From: Capsaspora owczarzaki ATCC 30864
Lineage: Eukaryota; Opisthokonta; Filasterea
NCBI RefSeq assembly: GCF_000151315.2
Contig: NW_011887303.1
Coordinates: 986,531-1,050,530 of the forward strand
Reading direction: 5' to 3'
Length of the DNA stretch: 64,000 bases
The translations under genes and the position numbers were made by a program. The notes beneath the pieces are model-generated. The model was given only the letters and a program-made list of their open reading frames with translations. It did not search any database and was not told the DNA's origin. Positions within the stretch are counted from its first letter, which is position 1, and each line of letters opens with the position of its first letter. Shown piece after piece: positions 4,016-63,484 of the stretch.

Positions 4016-6583
4016 ATGGAGCAAGGCACGGATGCACACAACTGGACAACCCCAGAGGTGACGGTGTGGCTGCAGCACGCCGTCAAGTTGCCAGAGTTCC
4101 TGGCGCCGTTCAGAGCGCTTGCGGTGGACGGACGCACACTTTTGGCGTACGACGAGGTCACGCTGGCCCATGCACTCTCGGCGTATAGTAACATTGACGA
4201 GAAGACTCGCCGCAAACTGCTAAAGGAAATCTCGCATTTGAAAGCCCCGCCGAAGGCCGCAGAGAAGAGCAACGCGTTCAAGCGCATTTCCGTGATGGGC
4301 AAGAGCTTTGCCAACAAGATCAGCGGCGGGCACAGCAACCTTCCGCCCACCGTGCCCGAGTCAGACTACACCCATTCATCGATGAGCCCGGCGGGAGGCT
4401 CGCCTGGCCCGCGGGCGGGTACCGGGCCAGCCGGTGGCCGAGGCGCCTTGCCCCCAACTCCCCAAGAAGTTCAACCAGATAGCTACACGGTTCCTGCAGA
4501 CGCCATGACACGCCAGCGATTGGCCTCGATCGTCGAAATGCGCAAAGCTTCCACCAGCAGCAGCAACAGCAGCAACAGCAACAGCCACATTGCACAACAC
4601 AACACGACGCAAGACGACAGCGCTTACGGAGTACCGTGGGATGTTTTGCAAGCACAACGCGCAAAAGCCGCTGCCGCCGATCCCAACAACCAGCCATTGT
4701 ACGATGTTGTGAGCGACGACAGCCCGGCCGTCCCACAGCCCGCTGCAGCAGAGGCCCTTTATGAAGCCCCGCTCGACATTCCTCACCCTGCAGTGCGTGC
4801 CCCACCGGCAGGTTCTCACACTCCCATTCGACCCCCTGCAGTCATGGCCAACCAAGGAGCAGCCAATCATCCTCTTCCTTCTTCTTCCTCTGCTGCTGCG
4901 GCGACAGGAGCCGCACAGCGCCACAATTCGAATTCCGCGCCACGTGCGCCTGCTGTGATTGGTCTTGTCAAGCCGCGTGCTGACGAGCCCGACACGGACG
5001 TGCACGAATACGAGGTGCTCTCGCCCGAAGATGACTTTCCCACACCTGTCGTCAAGCCTGCCAACAAGGCCGCATCGGCAGTCTCCGCTGCGCCAGCCCC
5101 CAAGGCAGAGGCCATCTACGAGCTCACCTCAGAGGAGCAAGACCAGGTTACCAAGTCCACCAGCAACGAGGCCCTGTACGAGATACCGTTCGAAGACGGC
5201 TCTCCCATCACCACCGCGGCGGCCCACGTACAGCCTCATGGCCCCGGCCGAGCTGCTGCAGCTCCCTTCTCAACGCAAACTCCCCCACAGGCGCAGGCGG
5301 CTCGCCCCGCTGCTCTGCCAAGCCAGGCTGCCATCCCCAAAGTTGCAGCGCTCACCAGCCAACTGCGATCGGTCGTTGGCAACCGCGCGGGTGGCAACGT
5401 TGTGCCCAACGACAGGCAACCCGAAACGTTGTACGAAACGCCCTCCGAACTTCCAGTGAATGAGTACGAGGAGCCGTTTGATGATGGATCAATGTATGAA
5501 AGCCGCCATGTGCACTCGGCGGTCACTCAAAAGAGCACCTCCCAGACCTCGGTTGGCAGCAGCGGCGGCAGCAACGGTGGTCTTTCGCGCACGCCGTCCA
5601 TTTCCGCCAATTCGGCGCGCTCCTCCCCATCGCCGTCGCGCACAAGCTCCACATCCAGCGGCTCGGGCATTGGCGCGACCGTTCCGCGTCAAAAATCCCT
5701 CAGCCACCTTGACGAAGGAGATTCGGCGGTGCACGAGTATGAGATGCCTTTTGAGGAGCCTGCCCCACTCGCCGCCCGCCCGCAAGCTCAATCAGAGGCA
5801 CCCTCGACCACTTCTGCCATTCCGCACGCGGGCGGAGCAGGATTGGTTGCAATGCCTGGGTAAGTTTGTTGTTGTTGTCGTTGTTGTTTGCTTTCGTTCG
5901 TCGGTGGAAGGTCTGTTGTCGATTTGGTGATCAAGCAAAGACGCACGGAGCGGGGGTGGTGGTGTTGGTGGTGTTGGTGGGCGTGGAGATGCGGTTGACA
6001 AGGACTGCATGGCATGGACGTCGGAACTTGAAATGTAACTTTACTCATCCAACGCGCTTGCTCTTTCTTCCCCACCTCTTTGGTCAGCTTCCGAGCATCC
6101 ATGGCAACTAGTGGTGCAAACAATCTGCACAAGAAAATGAGCGACTTATTTGAGGAGGCTGCCGCGCCACCCGTTTTCCGCGCCCAGAAGCCACAAGCCA
6201 TTCCCTCAACCGCTCCAAGCGTCGCTGCCGCTGCTCCGCCAACTGTTGATCAGGACGCGCTTATCCGACAGCAACCATGGTTTAAGAACATTGGTCGACC
6301 CGAAGCCGAGGCGGCAATCGCTCGCGACCGTCGCGACGGCTGCTTTATTGTCCGCCCGTCTGACGGCCGTTATTCCCTCTCCCTGTGGGCTGACAACAAG
6401 GTTTACAACATCAAGTTGCGTGTGGTTGACGGCAAGTGGGCGATCGGTGAAAGCTCTGAAGATCGCTTCTCCACCTTGATTGAGCTTGTGCACTTTTTCA
6501 CGCTGAATCCAGTGCAGCTGCGCAACTCGACCTCTGTGGTCCGCCTTTCTCACCCTTGCTCCTTCGCGCCGGAACATTCTTAG
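4016..6583 (+). CDS. SAM...SH2 adaptor of SLP-76/BLNK layout
   Basis: Model join(4016..5859,6088..6583), 779 residues. The start ATG lies in ACCATGG. The intron has gtaagt and tttggtcag ends and splits a Gly codon. Residues about 8-75 form a SAM domain (W-T-T-P-E-V..WL, F-R-A-L-A-V-D-G-R-T-L-L). Residues about 80-640 are disordered and Pro/Ala/Ser-rich, with 12 tyrosines at about 118, 157, 204, 229, 249, 332, 368, 388, 473, 484, 494 and 575; seven are YxxP (YTVP, YGVP, YEAP, YEIP, YETP, YEEP, YEMP). Residues 679 to about 772 are an SH2 domain: WF..I.RPEAEAAI, the phosphate-binding strand GCFIVRPS with its Arg, and KVYNIKLR in strand D where most SH2 domains have His. SAM, YxxP tyrosines and a C-terminal SH2 is the SLP-76/BLNK/CLNK order, and VYNI followed by x-(V/I/L)-R also matches those SH2 domains as I remember them. 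Likely role: a phosphotyrosine scaffold. Grb2-, Nck- or Crk-like partners are not in this window. Confidence 0.85.
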
Positions 6584-7051: not shown

Positions 7052-10000
7052 CTAATGGTTTGCAGACAGGCGCCCAGCAACCTTGCGAGCGGCAACAGGC
7101 GCAGCGCCAGTCGACGATGTCAAAGGCACGCTGGTGCGAGCGGTGGCACGCGGTGCTGGTAGCCTGGAAGCGGTGGTGGCTGGCTTGACGACCCGAGTTG
7201 AAGCGGCAATCTGAGCAGGGGCATTGCTGCTCAAAATAGGAGAAAGCACAGCAGCGGCGGCAGCAGCTGGGGCTGCGCTAACTGGAGTTGCTGAAATGTG
7301 CACTTCGACCGGAGAAGCGTCGTCCGTCGAGTCGTTCTCTTGCTCAACTTCGGCAACAGCGGTCGGCGAGCTTGGGATGGTTTGGCTTGGGATGCCAACG
7401 TTGGACACAGCGGTCTCGCCCATTTCTTCTGCTTCTTCTTCTTCTTTTTCTTCTTGCTGGGCTTTGCTCACCAGCTCGGACATGGGGCGCGACGAGGGCA
7501 AGCCTGGCAACTCATTCCAGCTCGAGATTGAGGGCAAGCGGAAGGAAGTGCGACAGTTGGACACAGTTTCGTCAAAGTCACCGACGTCACTCATGCGCCA
7601 CTGCGCAAACGGCTTGGAAGGCCGCCGTGGAGCGCGGCTGGTGCCCATGTCGGATAATCGCTGTATCCGAACCTGCTCGTCATTCTTGCGGAATGCATCA
7701 AGCAAAACTGCATGGTCGCTAGTCTGTGTAAACTGCTGCGGGAAGGCATAAGAACGCTTGCGCGGAGTATCGCCGGTGGGCACATCCTCTCGCAGCGCAG
7801 CGTGCACAAAGTCGCGAGCAGCGTTGTCGATGCCATGCAAGTCCTTCAACGAGGCGCTGTGCGTCTCTTGGGCCACGTGCTGGGCGACATCAATCTGCTC
7901 TTGCAGAGTGTCACAGAGGGCCGCGCCAGTTTGAACGCCGGATCGAATGACCTGGCAAACGGCTGTCTCAGTCTGCGCCTTGATGTTCTTGGAGCACTGC
8001 CTGGCTTGCTCCACGTCGGCGTCACGCTGGTCGGCCGAGCTGGACGCGCGGGCTTCAGTTTCAACGCGGACAGAGTGAGCGTAAGCGGTGACGGCGCACG
8101 GGATGTTGTCAGCGTTGGCATCAGAGTTTCGAGCATCGAGCAACGCGCGAACAGCGGTATCAATCGACGTGACGGACTCGTCCACGTCGTTGATCTTGCT
8201 CGCCATGGACTGTTGGCGCTGGGTGGTGGACTCGTGCATCGACGTGATGGCGACGAGGTTGGCTTGCTCGGCAGCTGTGCAGACGGAAGTGGCTTTGGCC
8301 ATCGTCTCTGAGCAACGCGTTTGAATTTCGGTATGGGCAACCACAGCGTTGGTCAGGGCAGTTGACCATCCAGTGGTCAAATCTGCAACCGCTTGGTGCG
8401 AGTCGGCATAGACGGAATCCAAAAGTGCAGTCATCTGCGCCAGCACAGCGGCTCGCTGGAGTGCATTCCGCTCGGCGTGCTCGGCCGCTTGGCGTTGCAT
8501 GTGTTGACGCTGGTTGTCGGCAGTGCGCGCCAAGTCGCCGCTCTTCTCTGCAACGAATCGACCAAGGTCATCAAGGGCAGACTTTTGGGCGAGTGCCAAC
8601 TGCGTGAGCGATCGAGCCATCGCGCTGGCTTCGGTGCAGGCGGCCTCCTTCCATTCTTGTGATTGAAGCAACTGCTCCTCGAGCGCGGTGCGGATTGATT
8701 GCACAATGGGCGACAAGTGACCCTCCAAGGCCTGCTGGCAAACAGTTGCCACGCGGGAGGCGAAGAACGCCGCGCTCTCGTTGGTGGCCGCGAGCTGAGC
8801 CGATTCTGCCCGGGCCTGCGACTCGATTGCGCCCACAATTCGCTCGGTGGACGCATCAACGTCTGCCATCAGCGAAGCAAGCCCTTCCAGAGCCTGGCTG
8901 GCCGTGGATAAAGTGGCCTCCGAGACGGACGCGACATGACGCGTGATTTGCGCAATCTGCTCACGATGCGCGGTCATGCATCGATCTGCTGCGCTGGTTG
9001 CGTCGGCAATACGCGTCGCCATGTCGGTGGCAAACTCACTGCGAGCACTGCGGTTGTGGGTTTCGACGGCGGCCTTGCGGGCGAGCTTCGCTTGGAGCCC
9101 GTCAATGTCGGAAAGCGACGCGCGAACGGTGGCCAGCAAGCTCGATGCTTCCTCCGAAAGCGTTTGCTCGTTCAGGGCATGTTCGTACATGAGATACTTG
9201 TGCTCGTCGCGATCGGTGGTCATGCGCTCGAGAGCAGCGACCGTAGACCGCAATTCCTGCGTCGTGCGCTCGAGGATGGTGCGCGTGTGCGCCAGGTCAT
9301 TGTTGGTGCTTTCAAGTCGCATTTTGAGCATCTCGACCTGGCCCACGGCAGAATCACGCTCGGCTTGAACTGCGTCCATGCGTGTCTGATGCTCGGCCAG
9401 CTGCTCGCGCTGCGTTTTGATCGTCTCTTCCATGGCCTCGTAGTTTTCTTGGGCAATGAAAAATCCATTCTTTTCGCGCGAAGCCACCAAGTCCCGCTTG
9501 AGTCGCTCAATTTCCACAGTATAGTCTCGAATGAGCGAGCGCTTGGTGAGCTTTTGATTGATTTCGGGGCGGTTTTTGACGTTCTTGGCGCGATGGGCAT
9601 AGTCCAGAGTGCTCAAGGTTTCCTCGACATTGATGGCTGCAGGCGACACGGTCGCAATGATGCACGTACGCGTGGTGCCGCCGAGCGAGTCCTGCAGAAG
9701 GCGAGTCAGTTTGCTCTCACGGTACGGAACGTGATCACGGCCCTCGACCAACGAAGTAATGACACGACCAAGCGTGAGCAGAGACTGGTTGATATTGCCC
9801 GCCTCACGCGCACGCTGGGAGACAGCGCCCGAACGCCCAATATTTTCCGACCCAGCAAGATCGACCAAGTTGAGCTTGCCGACCTTGAGCAGATCTTCGC
9901 CTTCAGGCGTCGACTCTTTCATGTGGATGGTGATGGAGAACACGCAATGCGAGCGGCTCGAGGCGTGGTTCATGGCAGTCACGGCCGTCTGGCGGCGAGC

Positions 10001-11514
10001 AGAGCACTTTTCCAGGACGGCATAAATGTCGTTGCGATGCTTGAGGCTCATCTCCTCGACGCCTTGAACGACGACGGCACCTTTGCGCGAGCCATCTTCC
10101 AAGATGCGGAGCTTTGTGGGGTCGTCCGACTTGGCGTCGCTCAGCAGATCGCGAAGCTCCTCATTGTAGAGCTCGAGCGATGAAACCTTGATGGAAAACT
10201 CGGCGTCTTGGCTTTCCAGCACTTCAAACAGGTTGTGCAGCGCGCGGGGCACAATGCCTGCCTCGGGATCGCTTTGGAATGAGTAGTTTCCTTCGGTGCG
10301 ACGACCCTCCATTGTGTACGTTTTACCAGTGCCGGTTTGGCCGTAGCTGTGTGTGTGGGAGTGTGTGAAACGGAGGGAGAGGCGAGTTAGGCATTTGATT
10401 GCGATCGGTTTGGTTTTTTTGCCGTTGTTGCTCTTGGCAAGCAACACGACAAAGAGAGAAAAGGGAGGGGGGCAAGGAAATGGCGCAACGCTTACGCAAA
10501 GATGGTGCAGTTGTAGCCCATCAGAACTTCCGTCATAATCGGAGCAACGACTTCGTTGTAGATTTCAATTTGGCGAGCATCATGACCAAACACCTGCAAA
10601 ACAAACCATGGAACCAGCCCCAAAACAAAGTCAGTCAGTACTGGATGACTCTTGATCGTCGCACCATGACAGTTACCTTGTCAAAGTGGAAAGTCTTGGT
10701 GGTGCTCTTGTCGACGACGCCTTGCTTGACATTGACTTGGCGCATTGTCTCGTCGCATTCGACGACCAGCGGGCTGACTGCGGTCTTTTCCATGTTGTTC
10801 AGGGGCCTGCAGCAGCAGAGCAGAGCAGATCAGTGTAAAGTGAGAACGACGTTTTTTTCAAGATTCAGTTGGTTTCCAAAGTGAGCAACTTCACGTCCCC
10901 GCCGTTCCTTTTTGTTTGGTTTGATAGATTTTTGCTCTGTTCGATGCAACCATCCACACACGGGCGAGATGGAGGTGGGATTCAGAGTATGAATTGGCGC
11001 GGTGAAACAGTTTTTTCCATTGCTTGGGGTTTTTTTTTTTTCCCTTCGCCCTGTCGCGCCTGTCAATGTCGCATCCAATGAAACAGAGCCTTCCACCCTT
11101 CTCCTATCAGCATCATCTAATCATCCACGCCACTGCTGGAAACGCGGTGCATTCGCGCAATGTTACTCAAACAAACAAAAAGCCGACCAAAACAAAAAAC
11201 CGTTTGCGTTTTTTATTTGGTTTCAAACTGTCAAAAAGTGTTTCAAATTTTGGCGGCGCGCATTTTGCGTTTGCGACGTTGGGTCGTTTGCTTGTCGGAA
11301 GAAGGCGAGATGGAGTCAAGTATGAAAGCTGAATCGATGCGCGTGTTCGTCGCATGCACGGGGAGTGTAGTGAAGCGGCGTTTGGGGCAGGGTGAAGAAA
11401 AAGAGTTCAGGAGGGTCGAATGGAAACTGGTGCAAAAACAGTTCGTTTCGTCCGTTGTTACCTGCAGCGCAAGACGACCTGAATGTTCTTCTCCTTGGGT
11501 TGCTTGGACGACAT
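7052..11514 (-). CDS. KIF11: Kinesin-5 (Eg5/BimC/KIF11-type) mitotic motor
   Basis: Minus-strand exons 11514..11462, 10806..10677, 10593..10496 and 10346..7052, 1191 residues. Exon 1 encodes [17 protein letters not shown] and exon 2 begins with the codon completing R-P-L-N. The motor spans about residues 11-360: P-loop GQTGTGKT, switch I NHASSRSH, switch II DLAGSE, and [19 protein letters not shown]. The insert in the P-loop neighbourhood (YTMEGRR...[11 protein letters not shown]) is typical of kinesin-5. A neck and long coiled coil follow. Near residue 950 is a BimC box (TPRKRSY), the CDK1-phosphorylated spindle-targeting motif of this family; then come a Ser-rich tail and a short acidic run. 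Kinesin-5 forms bipolar tetramers that slide antiparallel microtubules and separate spindle poles. The length agrees with the family. Introns are confined to the N-terminal motor region, and the first is about 650 bp. Confidence 0.95.
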
Positions 11515-14493: not shown

Positions 14494-14859
14494 GCAATGC
14501 ACCTTCAGTCTGTCGATTCAACACTTTGGAGTGGTTTTTTTTTTTTTTTCACCATTCCAACCAATTTCCCAGATTTGGTTTCCATTCCGACGCTCACCTT
14601 CAATCCATTTCAATTCATCCATTTCAATTCATCCATCAATTCATCCATCTAATGGTTCACTCATTCATTCATTCGTTCTTTCCATTATTCAATTATTCAA
14701 CTCACTTTTCTTTTTGTTTGTTGCTTCTTAGCTTTTTTTTTTTTTTTTCAAATTTTTTTTCCTTTTTTTTTTTTTTTTTTGGCTTTTTTCCATACATTTG
14801 TGTCTGCTGCAAAACGAACCATTCAGTCCACTGCTTCACCCTCAACTCGCTCATCAGTC
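14123..14859. other. Spacer with (CA)n microsatellite
   Basis: 737 bp between two same-strand genes. It contains a CA repeat at about 14452-14492 (about 20 units), ATTCATCCATTT-type near-repeats at 14600-14660, and T-rich tracts just before the RhoGEF start. No coding exon is supported. Confidence 0.5.
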
Positions 14860-17800
14860 ATGGCAGCCGAGTCATCGTCATCGTCATCGTCATCGTCTTC
14901 GTCCGCGCTGGGTGGGCCGCAGCAGTTAAACCGGCCGCTGTCCGCACTCTCGCCCGCAAACAACGGACTGGGCGACATTCTGGTCCCGCCGTCGCCGACA
15001 GCAACAGCAACAGCAACAGCAACGCCCGGCATTGACGACGAGCAACTCACAGAGCTGTACATGACGTCGTTCGGCATCACGCGCGACGAGGCCAGCCGCA
15101 TCCTGCTCCTGCGGCGGAAGCTCGTCCAGAAGGGCTTCCTGTCATCCACTGCTGCTGCTACTCCAGCTGCTTCCGACCACCAAGCAACCCAACCTCAAGC
15201 GGCCACCACAAGCAGCAGCCACAACTCAAACGTCCTCAATGACGAAACAGTCCTCCTCGCAAAGTTCCTGTTTGCCCGCGAGTTTAACGTCGAAAAGGCG
15301 CTCGCGCTGTACACGGTCTACATGAACCACTTTGGCATCACCCAGCGGTTTGCCGTCGATGTCATGGACTCGCTGAGGGACGGCACGCTGTACCTCCCTG
15401 GATCGCGCGACAAGGACAATGCTGCCGTGCTCGTCGTCGCTGCCAAACTGCAGGAAATGAGCTTCCCGTCGTCGCCGGCGTTCTCGGCCAGCTCGTCGTC
15501 CAACTTGTCGGCCATTCTGGACTTGGCATCGTATCTGCTGGACATTGCCACGACAGACACACTCACCCAGCGCAACGGCATTGTGGTGGTGGTCGATCTC
15601 TCGCGCGCCAGCTGGAAGCAGTTTGATGCCTCGCTGCAGTCGCAGTTGTTTGGCTTGATGGACGAAAAGTACCCCGTGCGCCTGCGCCGCATCTACCTCG
15701 TCAACGCTCCGTGGTGGCTGTCCATGGCCATGAAGACGTACAAGGCTGTCATGTCTGCGCCCTTGGCCGCCAAGCTCGAGGTGGTCGACAACAACGCCTC
15801 GCTCGCCAAAATCATCCCGCCCACCAGTCTGCCGAGCGACTTTGGCGGAAGCCTGCCTTACAACCACGAGGCATTCGTCGACCAGCGCGTGCAAGCCGAG
15901 ACAGATCTTCTTGCGGCGGCACGACGCGAAGGATACGTCTACCAGCTCGTGCCCACGTCCGACGAAAGCGAGGAAATGTTCAAGCGCCAGCTGTCCGAGC
16001 GTCGCCACTTCCACGAGCAAATTGCTCGCTTCTCGACGGTGTTTGACGATGATGTCGATGATCCGTTCGAGCAAATGCAAGCCCACGCAGGGGACGACAG
16101 CACAAGCGGTAGCAGCACGCCTGGATCGCCGCCGCAGATGCGCACCATTGCACAGCTGCCGGCTTCCATGTCGACATCCCTTCATTCAGTGTATTCGCTG
16201 ACTCCGTCCATGTCCAGCGAGTCCCAGACCTCGGCAGCTGCTGCTGTCAAGTGGGTGCGTCGCTACTTTGTCACGCGCGTCAAAGAAATGATCATTACCG
16301 TCTATCGCACGGCCGATGATGCCGCTGCGCTCGAAACGATTGATTTGCACAAGTGCTCTGACATTGTGGTGGACGAGCGAACGGTCAAACTCTTGCAAGA
16401 GCAATCGGCAAACAACACCGTGTCCTCGACCTCATCGCCCGCCGCTGGTGGTGGTGGTGGTGGTGCGTCCGCCAACCGCCTGAGCACGCTGAGCACCAAA
16501 AAGAGCGACCAGACGGTGACGGCGCTTGGTCGTGGTGCGTTTGTGAGCGCCCTGGATTCGCCCGAAGCGCAAAACTCGCACGCCTATTTCGGTTTCCACA
16601 TCCTTGGCATTGACGGTACCAAATGGTCCATCCGTCTCGAAGGTGCTCGAGAGTTTGAAGGCTGGATGGCGTCTCTCCGCGGCAAGATGAATGTAAGCAG
16701 TGGGCATTCTGCCTTTATTTTGCTTTGGTAGTGTGCAGCGACTGATTGTTTTGTTTGTTTGTTTTTTGTTTGTTTGGTTTTTGTTTGTTTGGTTTTTGTT
16801 GTTTTTTTTTTGTTTTACAATGCAGATTGTTCGCGAAGAACGCCGCCGCCGTGAAGAGGAATTGGCGCGCCGTCAGAAGGAGGAGCGAGAGCTGAAGGAA
16901 CGGCTCGAGAAGGCTCGTGAGGAGGAGCGCGCCCGACTTGCCCAGGAAGAGCAGGAGCTCCGCGAGCGCCAAGAACGCGAGGCTCGCGAGGAAGAAGAGC
17001 GAGCCCGCGAGGCTGTGCGATTGGCCCGCGAGGAGCGCATCCGCACCCTCCACCCCAAACGCACCAACATTGTGCAGGAACTTCTGGCGACCGAGCAATC
17101 CTACGTGAACAACCTTGTCATGGTGGTGGATGTAAGCGAACAGGAGTAGGTGCTGTGTTGATTGTTTCTTTTTTGTGTGTGTGTGCTCATGCCGTCGTAC
17201 GACTCAGTTCTTCATCAAGCCGTTGCGAGCAACGATCGAGACTGGCAAGCCGCTGGTGACCAACGCCGATCTCAAGAAAATGTTCCCCGATTTGGAATCG
17301 ATTGTTAACATCAACAAGCAGCTCCTGGCAGAGCTGGCCGAGCGTGTTGAGAACTGGTCGGCCGTTCAAAAGATTGGCGACATCTTTTTGAAGATGGTAC
17401 GCTTGCTGTTTCTGCCATGACACGGGTGTCAAGATGCTTGTTGATCCTTTTTATTTTGCTCACGCTACCCTCGCAACGCAGGCCGTTTACCTCAAGGTTT
17501 ACACTGGCTTTGTCAGCAATTTCCCGATGGCCACCGAGTTGATATCGCGACTGACTGAAACTTCGGCTCCGTTCAAGGCCTTTTTGAAGGTAAGGCAATT
17601 CATCAAACGTGCTTTGTGTGTAGTGGTGTTGAATTTGATGGCATTCTTGTCGAGTGGTGTTAACGGGACTCGGCAAATTGTCTACTTGTCAGGAAACTGA
17701 ATCAAGGCCTGAATGCAAACGCCTCGGTTTGCTCCAACACATGCTTACTCCGATTCAACGCATTCCTCGCTACGTCTTGTTGCTTGAAGGTGGGTCTGCT

Positions 17801-42883: not shown

Positions 42884-45676
42884 CTACTCGGATTGGATTC
42901 CGTCCAGCTCGCGCAGACCGAGGGCAATGTTAATGTTCTGTGAAGCGGCGACACAGAAGAGCGCGCGGTTAGCCAGCAATCCAACGCACAAAACCGTCGC
43001 CCAATGAGAGAAAAGAGAAAAACCAACCATCCACATCCAATCAAAAATTCATGTTGCAAATGCAGAACTGCAGGACTTGCGCAGTTACGATGAAGTTCCA
43101 TGATTGTGCGTTTCGCCGCCCAACCCCAACCCACCCTCCCTTTTCGCGCTCAATTCAACAGAATGCCGACGCACTGACACCAGCAACATCGACAACAAAA
43201 GCTCACCTGAAGTGCCTGGGTGGCAGCTCCCTTGAGGAGGTTGTCAAGGGTGGCAACGACGACGACACGGTTGGTGGCAGGATCGACCGCAAATCCACCG
43301 AGACGAACAAAATGCTTTTGCGCATTGTCCTTCACGACGGGAACAGCATCCTTCTGAGCGACAATCTCAATCAGCGGCTCCTTCCCAAACATGTCCTGGA
43401 AGCGCTGCACGACCTGCTCGCGAGTGAGCTTGACGTTGAGCCGGATGTCGGTGGTCAAAGTAATGCCTTGGAAGAATGGGGCCACATGGGGCATAAAGTT
43501 CACCTGTGTTTGACGCGAGTAGACCAGCGAACGTGGTTCAGAATGAGAACGACTCGCTCCAAGCGAGTTTTTCGCATAAATTCAGGCTGCAATCACCCCT
43601 TCTCCAAACCCCGCAATCCCAATCACCCCTTGCTTCAGCAAGCCCCCCCCCCTCCAATCCAAATCACTCACCTTGGAGCCAACCTGGCGCGACACCTCAC
43701 GCTCGTGCAGATGGTTGACCAGCGAGTACGGAACAATGTTGTCCTTGAGGTAGTTGACATCGTTCTTTTCGGAAGGAGTGGTGCCGGCACCAGAGTAGCC
43801 AGAGATGCCAAAGACTGCGGGCGGGTTGTTCGGGGCGAGGACGTCAGCGAGGGGCAGAATGGACAGCTGAGCGCCGGTGGCGTAGCAGCCGGGGTTGGAA
43901 ATAAAGCTCGCAGATGCAATGCGCTCGCGGAAGCGCTCGGGAAGACCGTACTGCCACTCGTCAGTGAAGCGGTTGTCGCCCGAGAGATCGACCGTCACAA
44001 TTTTGCGGTCTTTCTGCGAGGCGGACAGCTTGCGGATGGCTTCGACGTACGGGCCGCAGTGGCCGTTGGGCAGGGCGAGCACCCAGACGCTAACATCGTT
44101 GGCGTGCTTGGCAATGTCGTCTGGGGGAAGGGCCTCATAACGCAAATCACCCTTGAACTCGGGAATGTGGTCGGCCAACTTTTGGCCGGCATTGGCGCGG
44201 GAACCAACGCAGCGCAGCTCGAGCGCTGAATGGTCTCCTAGCAAACGAATGAGCTCACGACCAACATAGCCACGCGCTCCGATAATACCGACACCAATCG
44301 ACTTGGTGGCAGCGCGAGCAGCAGCGGAAGCAGCGGCAGCAGCCGATGTGGAGAAGGAGCGCGCACCAGCAGCATTTCCGCCAAGAGCCGCAGCAGCGCG
44401 GGAGGTACGACCAAGCGAGACGGTCGTGCCCTTGGCGCACTTGCCAAAGAGCAACGAGCGGGTGAGGTGATCGGTCGAGGTGATGGTGACGGACGAGGCC
44501 TTGGGCAGGTCTTCGAGCAGCTCCTTGAACTCTTTGATCTTGAGCCGAGTGCCGTACTTGACCCATGCCTGACCCATCAGGTGATCAAACTCCTTGTGAA
44601 TGTTGATGGTCTCAATGATCTGGCCCTTCTCGCCGGGAATGCCGCCGGTCGAGTTCAAAAAAACGGTGCTGATCGGGTTGACCGCCTTTGCGACCTCGCA
44701 GGCGGCAATGTCGGCGTTAATGTTGAGCGTCTGGCCCGTCTTGTCCTGCGCGAGACTGGTGATGACGGGAACAATGCCCTTGCCAACCAGCTCGTTCAGC
44801 AGCTTGCTGTTGGCGCCAGTGGTCTTGCCGACGAGCTTCCACTTGCTATAGTCGAGCACATCGGCGTACAGAACGCCCGACGTGCACGGCGCGCAGGGGA
44901 TGCCGGCCTTGGAGAGGCCCTCGATGGTGAGCTTGTTGGCCTCGTTGAAGACGCGCTGGGCAATCTTGAGTGTGTCGGCGTCCGTGACGCGCATGCCGTC
45001 CTGGTACTCTGGCACAATGCCGGCGTTCTCGAGCAGCTTGTTGAGCTGAGGGCCGCCGCCGTGAATGACGATCGGCGAGATGCCCAAGCGGTACAAGAGC
45101 GAGACGGCGGGAGCGAGGATGTGCATTTCTTCCTCGACGATCGCACCGCCAATCTTGATGACGGCGGTCTTGGGTCCAGCAGCACCAGCAGCAGCAGCAT
45201 CCTTTGTAGCAGCAGCAGACTCGCCAAAGTGCTTGAGGAAGTACTGGATGTCGCTCACATCGCGAGCACCGCTGAGCCACTGTGAGATGACCGACTGTGC
45301 AAACAAGTTTACCACAAGCGAGTGAGCTTTTGTTTTTTTTTTTCTTTCTTCTTTTTGTATTATCACTTGAATGACGATGACGACGAGTGACAAGTTTTGC
45401 ATGAGAATCATCATCATCATCATCACGGTTGGTTTCGGTGGTAAGAATATGAAGTGATAAGAAAATCCCAAAACGAAACGAGAAAATACAAAAAAAAAAA
45501 AAAATCGTAAGATAATCAAAAGGACAGCCGACGTGAACAAGAAGGGCGATTGTTTTGACGTGCTTTTGGCGCAATGATGCTAAGATTCGCCTGCCCGCCT
45601 GCCTGCCTGCCTGCCTGCCTGCCTGCTGCGAGAAACTGAACGAGCTGCACTTGTTGAAGCGGAGCATTGATTCGGT

Positions 45677-61041: not shown

Positions 61042-61301
61042 AATGGTTTGGTGGGGCTCATGCGTCCGTATGGTGTTGTGTTTGTGAAAGTTGAAAAAAG
61101 AACGCCAAAAAGTCCCTTTTTTGGGCGATCGCGTTTTGTCCCTTTTTGCATCCTTTCTCCTTCCCCCGTCGTACCAGTCATCACCCCTCCGCTCCTCTCA
61201 CTCTAAACACATAGAAGGTACATATATACATGCAGTAGAGAGGGAAAAGGGAGATTTGTGGTCAAAACGGTCGCAGGGCGGGGTGAGGAGTGGAAAAAAC
61301 A

Positions 61302-61331
61302 CGCGATGTAAAAAACTTTTTTGGGTGATAG
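61302..61331 (-). repeat. Right terminal inverted repeat of element C
   Basis: 30 bp; 29 of 30 bases match the inverse of 59655-59684. Confidence 0.95.
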
Positions 61332-61333
61332 TA

Positions 61334-63484
61334 GTCTACGATGGCGCAGGCGTAGAACGCGAAGAGCGTCGGCGAGTCGCAGCCTCCCTGGCGCACCGAC
61401 CTTTGGATTGAAAAGTGATCCGAGACTCGGCCTTGGTACACCATCGAGGAGCGGCCATTGGTGTTGTAGAGTTTGATCATGTTGATGTAGCCTGGCCCGA
61501 CTCCGTACGCTCTGAGTGCAGCATACAGGAAGTCGTGTGAGACCTTGTCGAACGCCTTGGACGCGTCTGTCATGGCAATCACTCCAGGGGTTTTGATGGT
61601 GTTGCACAGATCAATCACATCTCGGGTGAGATGGACGCAGCCATCGATGGTCCGAGAGGTGACAAACCCGTTTTGGTTGAGTGGTATGATGTCGTTGACC
61701 ACCAGCTGCAGCCGAGCGATCACTGCTTTGGTCAGGAGTTTGAAGTCGCAGTTCAGCAGCGAGATTGGTCGGTAGTTGCCAAGGTCAGAGCGCGGGCCTT
61801 TCTTGTACAGCAGCTTGACGAAGCCGTCCTGCATGTATTCCGGAAGGCGACCATTTTCGAGCGAGCGGTTGGCGATGGCGGCGAGGATTGGGGCCAGCTC
61901 GTGCTTGAACTTTTTGTAGAACGCAGTGCCCAGCCCGTCGGGCCCTGGGGACTTGCCAGATGCAGTTTTGTTGATGGCGTGGACGATCTCCCATGCCTCC
62001 AGCGGTCTGCTCATCAACTCGTGGTCCTCGTCGTCGAGCATCTCGTTGGGCTTTGCATGGCTGAGGATGTGCTGGGCAGCTGCTGGGTTAATGGGTACGT
62101 GCGCATAGAGCTTAGCGTAGAAATCTCGCTGGGCGTCCGTGATGCCGGCCGCATCGGTGACTTCTTTGCCGTCGACGAGGAGCATTGGGATGTGCGTCGC
62201 CTTTTGGGACTGCTTTTCGAGCGAGAAGTAGAAGGAGGTGGGGTGTTCGCCCTCGGTGCGCCACTTTTTGGCCGAGCGGACTCGTGCTCCTTGCGCGCGA
62301 TGCTCGAGCTCAGCTTTGGCACGGGCTTCCTGCTCCGCTCGTTCGGCTGCAAGCAGTTTTGCCTCTGCGGGGGATGTTGCTGCGAGGAGGTTGCCTTCGA
62401 TGATTTTGAGCTTGCGGCTCGCTTGGGCCAGAGCCTTCGCCCGGTCTTTCGCAATGGAGCCGCACAGGCACTGGGCTAGCCATGCTACGTCGGCCTTGAA
62501 AGCAGTCCAGTGGTTCTCGGGGTCGGGGCGGCGCGCCAGCTCTGCTATCTCGTTGAGGACCATGCCGCAGAAGCCAGCGTGTTCGAGAATGGTGTCGTTC
62601 AGCTTGAAGGGTGGAGTGCATCTGTCTTCCGCGGACGGCGCCACCAGGTTCACACAGACGCCTCGATGGTCCGAGTGTTGGTAAATCCTGGTCGCGGTCG
62701 ACTTGATTGTGAGCGGGAGGTTGGATGACAGGAGCATGAGGTCGATGCGGGAGGCTCGGTGTGTCTGGTTCTTGCTCGGCCATCGTGTGTATTCGACAGG
62801 GTCATCGGCGCGGTGGTTGAGCAGCCAGGCATCCTCGAGTGCGTGCTTGTTGATGAAGTCCTTGAGAGCGTGGTTTGCCTGTGTGGCGCTCCTAGGCTCT
62901 TGGCTTGGCTCTGGCTGGACGTACAGGGGGCTGATGTTGGGTGTGTTGTTGAAGTCGCCGCCGATGATGGCGGGCAGCCTTGGCTCGTCGTCGTTTGGCT
63001 GGGTGGCTGACTTGATGAGGTCGCTGAGTTGGTCCAGGAACGCCACTTTGTCAGCTTGTGAGCCAGATGCCGGGGCATAGATTGATGAGATGATGGTTGG
63101 CTTGCTGTTGAGGTTTGCTGTGATGATGAGGGCTCGCCCTGGGATGGAGCTGAGTAGTGTTGGGCTCGCGAGTGCGGGGTTGGTGTCGCCCGGTGCCGGC
63201 TTCCTGATGAGGATGCCGACCCCGTGCTTGGGTTCCGGCTCGGAGCTCCAGAAGCAAGTGTAGTCGCGGAAGAGGTTGGAGGCGGCTGCTTCGGTCGCTG
63301 GCGTGAGCCAGGTTTCCTGAAGCAGGATGACGGTTGGAGGAGTTGGGCGGCCGTTGTAGGTGGTGGCCGGATTGGAGAGTGCATGGATGAGAGAGGCGGA
63401 GGAGGAGGAGAAGAAGGGGAGGGGCGCATTGCCCCCTACAGAGAGGGAGCGCGCATTTAGAGTTGCGAAGAGAAGGCCGGTCAT
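61334..63484 (-). mobile_element. L1-type LINE ORF2 (endonuclease-reverse transcriptase), cut short by element C
   Basis: From the ATG at 63484 about 717 residues are open. The N-terminal third is an APE-type endonuclease: ATLNARSL, ILLQETW, ISSIYAPA, IIGGDFNNTP, RIDLMLLSS and the terminal SDHRGV. The reverse-transcriptase domain begins near GKSPGPDGLGTAFYK and shows NYRPISLLNCDFKLLTK, QNGFVTSRTID, AMTDASKAFDKVSHDFL (first catalytic Asp) and SVRQGGCDSPTLFAFY. The frame enters the inverted repeat of element C at 61332, before the YADD box, so the element cannot be active. The order EN then RT and the CCHC-containing ORF1 upstream fit the L1/Tx1 group. Confidence 0.92.

Follow-up and report, generated by a model that had tools for sequence, protein, structure and literature searches.

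A candidate SLP-76/BLNK-type phosphotyrosine adaptor gene in the unicellular holozoan Capsaspora owczarzaki

The locus and its gene model

The window, meaning the whole stretch of 64,000 nucleotides of Capsaspora owczarzaki DNA that was analysed, carries a gene on the plus strand whose two coding pieces, 4016..5859 and 6088..6583, join in translation to a spliced protein of 779 amino acids. The start codon at 4016 stands in the context ACCATGG, and the reading frame is continuous across a 228-base intron to a stop at 6583. The features of the gene, all on the plus strand, are as follows.

4016..5859, plus strand: exon 1, with the start codon, the SAM domain and the tyrosine-bearing region; codes for residues 1-614 plus two bases of codon 615
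4037..4243, plus strand: predicted SAM domain, residues 8-76, from a sub-cut-off Pfam SAM_2 match and PDB sequence matches
4484..4486, plus strand: Tyr157 in YTVP, a YxxP site
4625..4627, plus strand: Tyr204 in YGVP, a YxxP site
4760..4762, plus strand: Tyr249 in YEAP, a YxxP and YExP site
5177..5179, plus strand: Tyr388 in YEIP, a YxxP and YExP site
5432..5434, plus strand: Tyr473 in YETP, a YxxP and YExP site
5465..5467, plus strand: Tyr484 in YEEP, a YxxP and YExP site
5738..5740, plus strand: Tyr575 in YEMP, a YxxP and YExP site
5860..6087, plus strand: intron of 228 bases, phase 2, with a GTAAGT donor at 5860, a pyrimidine tract and a CAG acceptor ending at 6087
6088..6583, plus strand: exon 2 including the stop codon, with the SH3-docking motif and the SH2 domain
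6167..6193, plus strand: PPVFRAQKP, of PxxxRxxKP form, residues 642-650, putatively of the Grb2 C-SH3 docking type
6275..6559, plus strand: SH2 domain, residues 678-772, with a Pfam core at about 6281-6499

That the model mis-joins two separate genes, one for a SAM/tyrosine protein that stops at 5863 and one for a short SH2 protein with its start at the ATG at 6100, is very improbable, for although each piece is an open frame by itself and the joined model is read from DNA only, the donor and acceptor are consensus signals and the frame is unbroken over the 228 intervening bases.

The divergent neighbour of this gene lies on the minus strand, from window position 1 to about 850, with a possible start near 850, and continues upstream (L009:1441-3051:-). 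It encodes a PH domain, an acidic tyrosine tract (YIYDFDSYDAAHDYHDLE, DYVDLESDEEE), the sequence PPVSRDNKP (PxVxRxxKP form) and a C-terminal SH2 domain for which comparison gave no clear family; its layout resembles that of 3BP2. Farther along the window are a kinesin with a motor and a C-terminal kinesin-associated microtubule-binding domain, presumably kinesin-5-like (7052-10447, minus strand), a protein with a CRAL/TRIO lipid-binding domain (14779-16731, plus strand), a fusion of amino acid kinase and semialdehyde dehydrogenase, the arrangement of the fungal arginine enzyme ARG5,6 (43582-45540, minus strand), and a LINE-type open frame with an endonuclease/exonuclease domain followed by a reverse transcriptase (61262-63484, minus strand).

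The SAM domain and the tyrosine-bearing middle region

The N-terminal domain matches the Pfam model SAM_2 (PF07647) with an E value of 0.018 and 15.6 bits, under the cut-off of 20.5, and the SAM_PNT and SAM_1 models also match weakly and below cut-off, making three SAM models in all. A phmmer search of the PDB with the 83 N-terminal residues retrieved 24 sequences (E up to 10), headed by STIM1 at 4e-4 and including STIM2, neurabin, BFAR (so titled; a ring-finger relative), SARM1/tir-1, PHC3, DGK-delta and SHANK2. Because all 24 come from SAM-bearing proteins, the prediction of an N-terminal SAM domain in the position seen in SLP-76 is accepted. The SAM similarity on which the preliminary description had staked its reading was found, as a weak Pfam match and 24 PDB proteins. 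An AlphaFold2 model of the region has five helices at a pLDDT of 67, and both the model and structure comparison based on it are weak. By sequence, the domain shows no particular kinship to the SAM domain of SLP-76, whose structure 2EAP is absent from the 24 PDB matches of the N-terminal 83 residues (phmmer, E up to 10). That entry is named as the SLP-76 SAM structure in PMC3795252, which also describes self-association of the domain.

The middle region between SAM and SH2 spans 595 residues, its disorder being judged from composition. It contains 12 tyrosines, among which are seven YxxP, eight YE and five YExP sites, so the count agrees with the 12 tyrosines, seven YxxP and several YExP first reported; the five tyrosines outside YxxP stand in YTHS, YDVV, YEVL, YELT and YESR. 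When the region was shuffled 100,000 times, the means were 1.47 YxxP, 0.64 YE and 0.08 YExP, and seven YxxP were reached in 19 of the 100,000 shuffles, eight YE in none and five YExP in none. The frame, Pfam, the PDB search and these counts together bear out the proposed succession of a SAM domain, a long tyrosine-bearing middle and a C-terminal SH2 domain. Human BLNK is not known to have a SAM domain, and the same doubt extends to mammalian CLNK. The preliminary description had regarded the full layout as common to SLP-76, BLNK and CLNK, which holds for SLP-76 as described in PMC3795252 but is doubtful for the mammalian forms of the other two. According to the same source, the SLP-76 counterparts of the YExP sites are YESP, YESP and YEPP, which serve Vav, Nck and Itk.

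SH2 kinship, docking motif and partner genes

The SH2 domain gave a clear Pfam match (PF00017, E value 2.6e-11; 43.9 bits, where the cut-off is 21). Among the best 60 of its 196 PDB matches, the top chain is human BLNK, with 43.2 bits within one domain, while SHP2 chains reach 42.2 bits as the sum of two SH2 domains, of which the better gives 25.5, PLCG1 38.4 bits across two SH2 domains and Grb2 31.0. Searched against the Capsaspora genome, the human BLNK SH2 had three matches, led by the SH2 of the candidate adaptor (40.4 bits, 7.4e-9, 35% identity) with a PLC-gamma SH2 as runner-up at 21.5 bits. The nearest paralogue of the adaptor SH2 within the genome scores 31.5 bits, less than human BLNK.

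Score margins were compared in a set of 15 Capsaspora and 10 human SH2 domains, in which BLNK was the sole representative of the SLP-76/BLNK family, with SLP-76, CLNK, SH2D6 and competing families lacking structures left out. The adaptor SH2 scored BLNK 15.8 bits above the next human domain, and BLNK scored the adaptor SH2 21.2 bits above the next Capsaspora domain. Where a Capsaspora domain had its orthologue in the set, the margins were 66.7 (SHP N), 27.4 (PLC-gamma N) and 12.3 (PLC-gamma C, a margin between two PLC-gamma paralogues), and for the other 11, with no orthologue in the set, at most 6.9. From human to Capsaspora, true pairs ranged from 17.3 to 97.1, and domains whose orthologue was not in the set gave 5.8 (RASA1 N), 12.3 (RASA1 C), 1.5 (p85 N) and 0.4 (p85 C). 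The human SHP2 C-SH2, whose own counterpart was left out of the set, nevertheless had a margin of 25.4 to a sister domain, the Capsaspora SHP N-SH2, so that a margin this large indicates close kinship but not necessarily orthology.

A maximum likelihood tree of 25 SH2 rows placed the adaptor and BLNK in one clade with support of 93/90, the bootstrap not having settled, and the clade had support of 91/88 in the same tree reduced to 20 rows by removal of five Capsaspora rows. The tree thus groups the domain with BLNK and nowhere firmly elsewhere, but AU tests left four alternative placements unrejected (p 0.095, 0.121, 0.152 and 0.253), as may be expected from about 100 usable columns and the long branches of both the adaptor and BLNK. 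In the VYNI strand, Asn takes the place of the usual His in the adaptor SH2 and BLNK only (two of 25 aligned domains, with His in 20 of the 25; column read by eye), so that the BLNK-like KVYNI in the earlier account was correctly identified as far as BLNK is concerned. The agreement it had claimed for the RPEAEA helix did not hold up: BLNK has DRKSAEEA, and R-x-E-A-E occurs also in further SH2 domains, among them those of PLCG2 and Capsaspora Src2.

Of all the lines of support for the family assignment, this apparent kinship between the SH2 domain and BLNK is the strongest. That the protein is instead an ordinary SH2 adaptor from a different family, such as one related to PLC-gamma, Grb2 or SHP, and merely resembles SLP-76 is improbable: PLC-gamma and SHP do supply the next best SH2 matches and such placements are among those unrejected by the AU tests, but both score clearly lower in both directions, and their aligned SH2 domains have His where the adaptor and BLNK have Asn.

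Ahead of the SH2 domain lies PPVFRAQKP, the sole RxxK motif of the protein, which the preliminary description had overlooked. The form PxxxRxxKP is favoured by the C-terminal SH3 domain of Grb2 (PMC10968029); Drosophila Dos carries PPVNRKLKP (PMC10532153), and the RxxK motif of SLP-76 is bound by Gads (PMC6669380). In 200,000 shuffles PxxxRxxKP arose in 2,284 and the P-x-[VI]-x form in 189. With PPVFRAQKP included, there are four PxxxRxxKP sites across all six reading frames of the window, and three in 49,813 residues when six-frame open stretches of at least 100 residues in the window are taken; the longer frames, 35,894 residues, hold one site, the PPVSRDNKP of the neighbouring gene, listed twice as two loci hold it. 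Because the count was made after the motif had been seen, these statistics are suggestive only. By its form, PPVFRAQKP may dock a Grb2 C-SH3 in the way of the Gab, Dos and SLP-76 motifs.

The genome searched comprises 27.46 Mb in 29 contigs, with profile matches to 34 SH2, 176 kinase-family, six T-box and two Runt domains and none to Wnt in a search run without a control. Judged by domain content, it encodes most of the partner families of SLP-76/BLNK, namely Vav, Nck, PLC-gamma, Tec and Grb2. PLC-gamma has PLC-X, two SH2, SH3 and PLC-Y domains, and Nck has three SH3 domains and one SH2. The exons of Vav, Tec and Grb2 were read one at a time and joined by position only. The Tec-type kinase has PH (just below cut-off), a BTK motif, SH3, SH2 and kinase domains, and Grb2 has SH3, SH2 and SH3, with human GRB2 C-SH3 as the best match of its C-SH3 (67.8 bits). 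The Vav gene lies as follows.

Genome C19:59000-68900 (locus L031): CH, RhoGEF, PH, C1 (just below cut-off), SH3, SH2 and SH3 in adjoining frames

The origin of Vav has been placed in choanozoans (PMC6562523). SH2 domains of Src, Abl, SHP and RasGAP were named in Capsaspora by eye or through SH2 comparison, and inspection by eye of the kinase matches listed picked out none of Syk type, with tandem SH2 domains and a kinase.

Interpretation and comparison with known adaptors

Taken jointly, the SAM domain, YExP array, Grb2-docking motif and SH2 domain, alongside the partner genes of this genome, are best read as placing the protein in the SLP-76/BLNK family, and the gene probably encodes a cytosolic phosphotyrosine scaffold of that family in a unicellular holozoan. 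The main rival is independent assembly of the same layout by domain shuffling, in which a holozoan-specific combination of SAM, YxxP linker and SH2 would act in the manner of SLP-76 although the two proteins, taken whole, had separate origins. Such convergence is unlikely, though of the alternatives it deserves the most weight: the SAM domain has no special likeness to that of SLP-76, alternative SH2 placements survive the AU tests, the neighbouring Capsaspora gene brings an SH2 together with PH, tyrosines and an RxxK motif of like form, and transmembrane proteins with YxxP repeats are known from choanoflagellates, three of five with SH2-like domains (PMC5043372). Against it stand the reciprocal best match of the SH2 domain with BLNK, at margins like those of true orthologues, together with the same domain order, the same YExP form and an RxxK motif ahead of the SH2.

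The domains, motifs, SH2-BLNK kinship and partner genes are read from sequence, and from these we infer how an SLP-76/BLNK-type scaffold might work in this organism. The SAM domain would mediate self-association, PPVFRAQKP would be held by a Grb2-type adaptor, and Src- or Tec-type kinases would phosphorylate the YExP/YxxP tyrosines. The resulting phosphotyrosines could draw in Nck and Vav through their SH2 domains, leading to actin and Rho GTPases, and likewise Tec and PLC-gamma, leading to calcium and diacylglycerol, while the C-terminal SH2 would engage a phosphorylated tyrosine of another partner or of a receptor. For such a cell, which lacks lymphocyte receptors, a role in actin or calcium signalling during adhesion or phagocytosis may be envisaged. 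The divergent PH/SH2 neighbour might be another adaptor, one that binds membranes and docks to the same Grb2.

The preliminary description had gone on to propose that, given homology, the immune-receptor scaffold predates animals. The family link stands, through the reciprocal BLNK match, the clade, the domain order, YExP and RxxK, but an immune-receptor scaffold exceeds the data because the SAM domain lacks SLP-76 kinship, the family was represented by BLNK only, the AU tests leave alternatives and no Syk-type kinase was recognised among the matches listed. A broader proposal, which we advance tentatively and at somewhat less than even confidence, is that the whole SLP-76-type module (SAM/YExP/SH2 adaptor, Grb2 docking, Vav, Nck, PLC-gamma and Tec) had already come together in a unicellular animal ancestor, where it served phagocytosis, adhesion or filopodia, before LAT, Syk/ZAP-70 and antigen receptors took it over.

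Among the papers searched, none links Capsaspora to SLP-76 or BLNK. According to PMC5431462, the slp76 complex exists as early as invertebrate chordates; its comparison includes a sea urchin slp76, and it describes a squirt slp76 that lacks SAM and WW, two domains that had "not emerged until bbslp76". PMC12065747 reports slp-76 to be absent from Botryllus and other ascidians, which disagrees with the squirt slp76 of PMC5431462. In 2016 the pre-metazoan substrates of YxxP-phosphorylating kinases were called unknown in PMC5043372, where some transmembrane proteins of Capsaspora, subsets of which carry YxxP, also came up in the profile search. If the present reading is true, a pre-metazoan SAM-bearing member would move the origin of the scaffold before animals and immune cells, the ascidian state would become a loss, and the protein would be a candidate pre-metazoan substrate of YxxP-phosphorylating kinases in an organism amenable to phosphosite mapping.

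One scan of viral contigs gave no relative. The Capsaspora protein shares with the T-cell adaptor SLP-76 (LCP2) an N-terminal SAM domain, YExP tyrosines, a proline-containing middle, an RxxK motif for a Grb2-family C-SH3 and a C-terminal SH2. It differs in having seven YxxP sites over about 420 residues where SLP-76 has three N-terminal tyrosine motifs, in an RxxK motif that ends about 28 residues before the SH2, and in a SAM domain not recognisably closer to that of SLP-76 than to others. With the B-cell adaptor BLNK (SLP-65) it shares a reciprocal best SH2 match, including the residues just ahead of the SH2 and VYNI; it differs in possessing a SAM domain, which human BLNK is not known to have. 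BCAR1 (p130Cas) has a similar YxxP array but also an N-terminal SH3 and a FAT-like domain, and Pfam (E up to 10) found in the two coding pieces neither an SH3, such as BCAR1 bears, nor a PH, such as stands at the N terminus of Gab/Dos docking proteins. The choanoflagellate YxxP proteins described in PMC5043372 likewise carry a YxxP array, but unlike the Capsaspora protein they span the membrane. Compared by description only, amphioxus slp76 (SAM-WW-PRR-SH2, 642 amino acids; PMC5431462), despite its additional WW domain, and a sea star BLNK-like protein of about 759 residues (PMC11593052) resemble the Capsaspora adaptor in their N-terminal SAM, long middle and C-terminal SH2.
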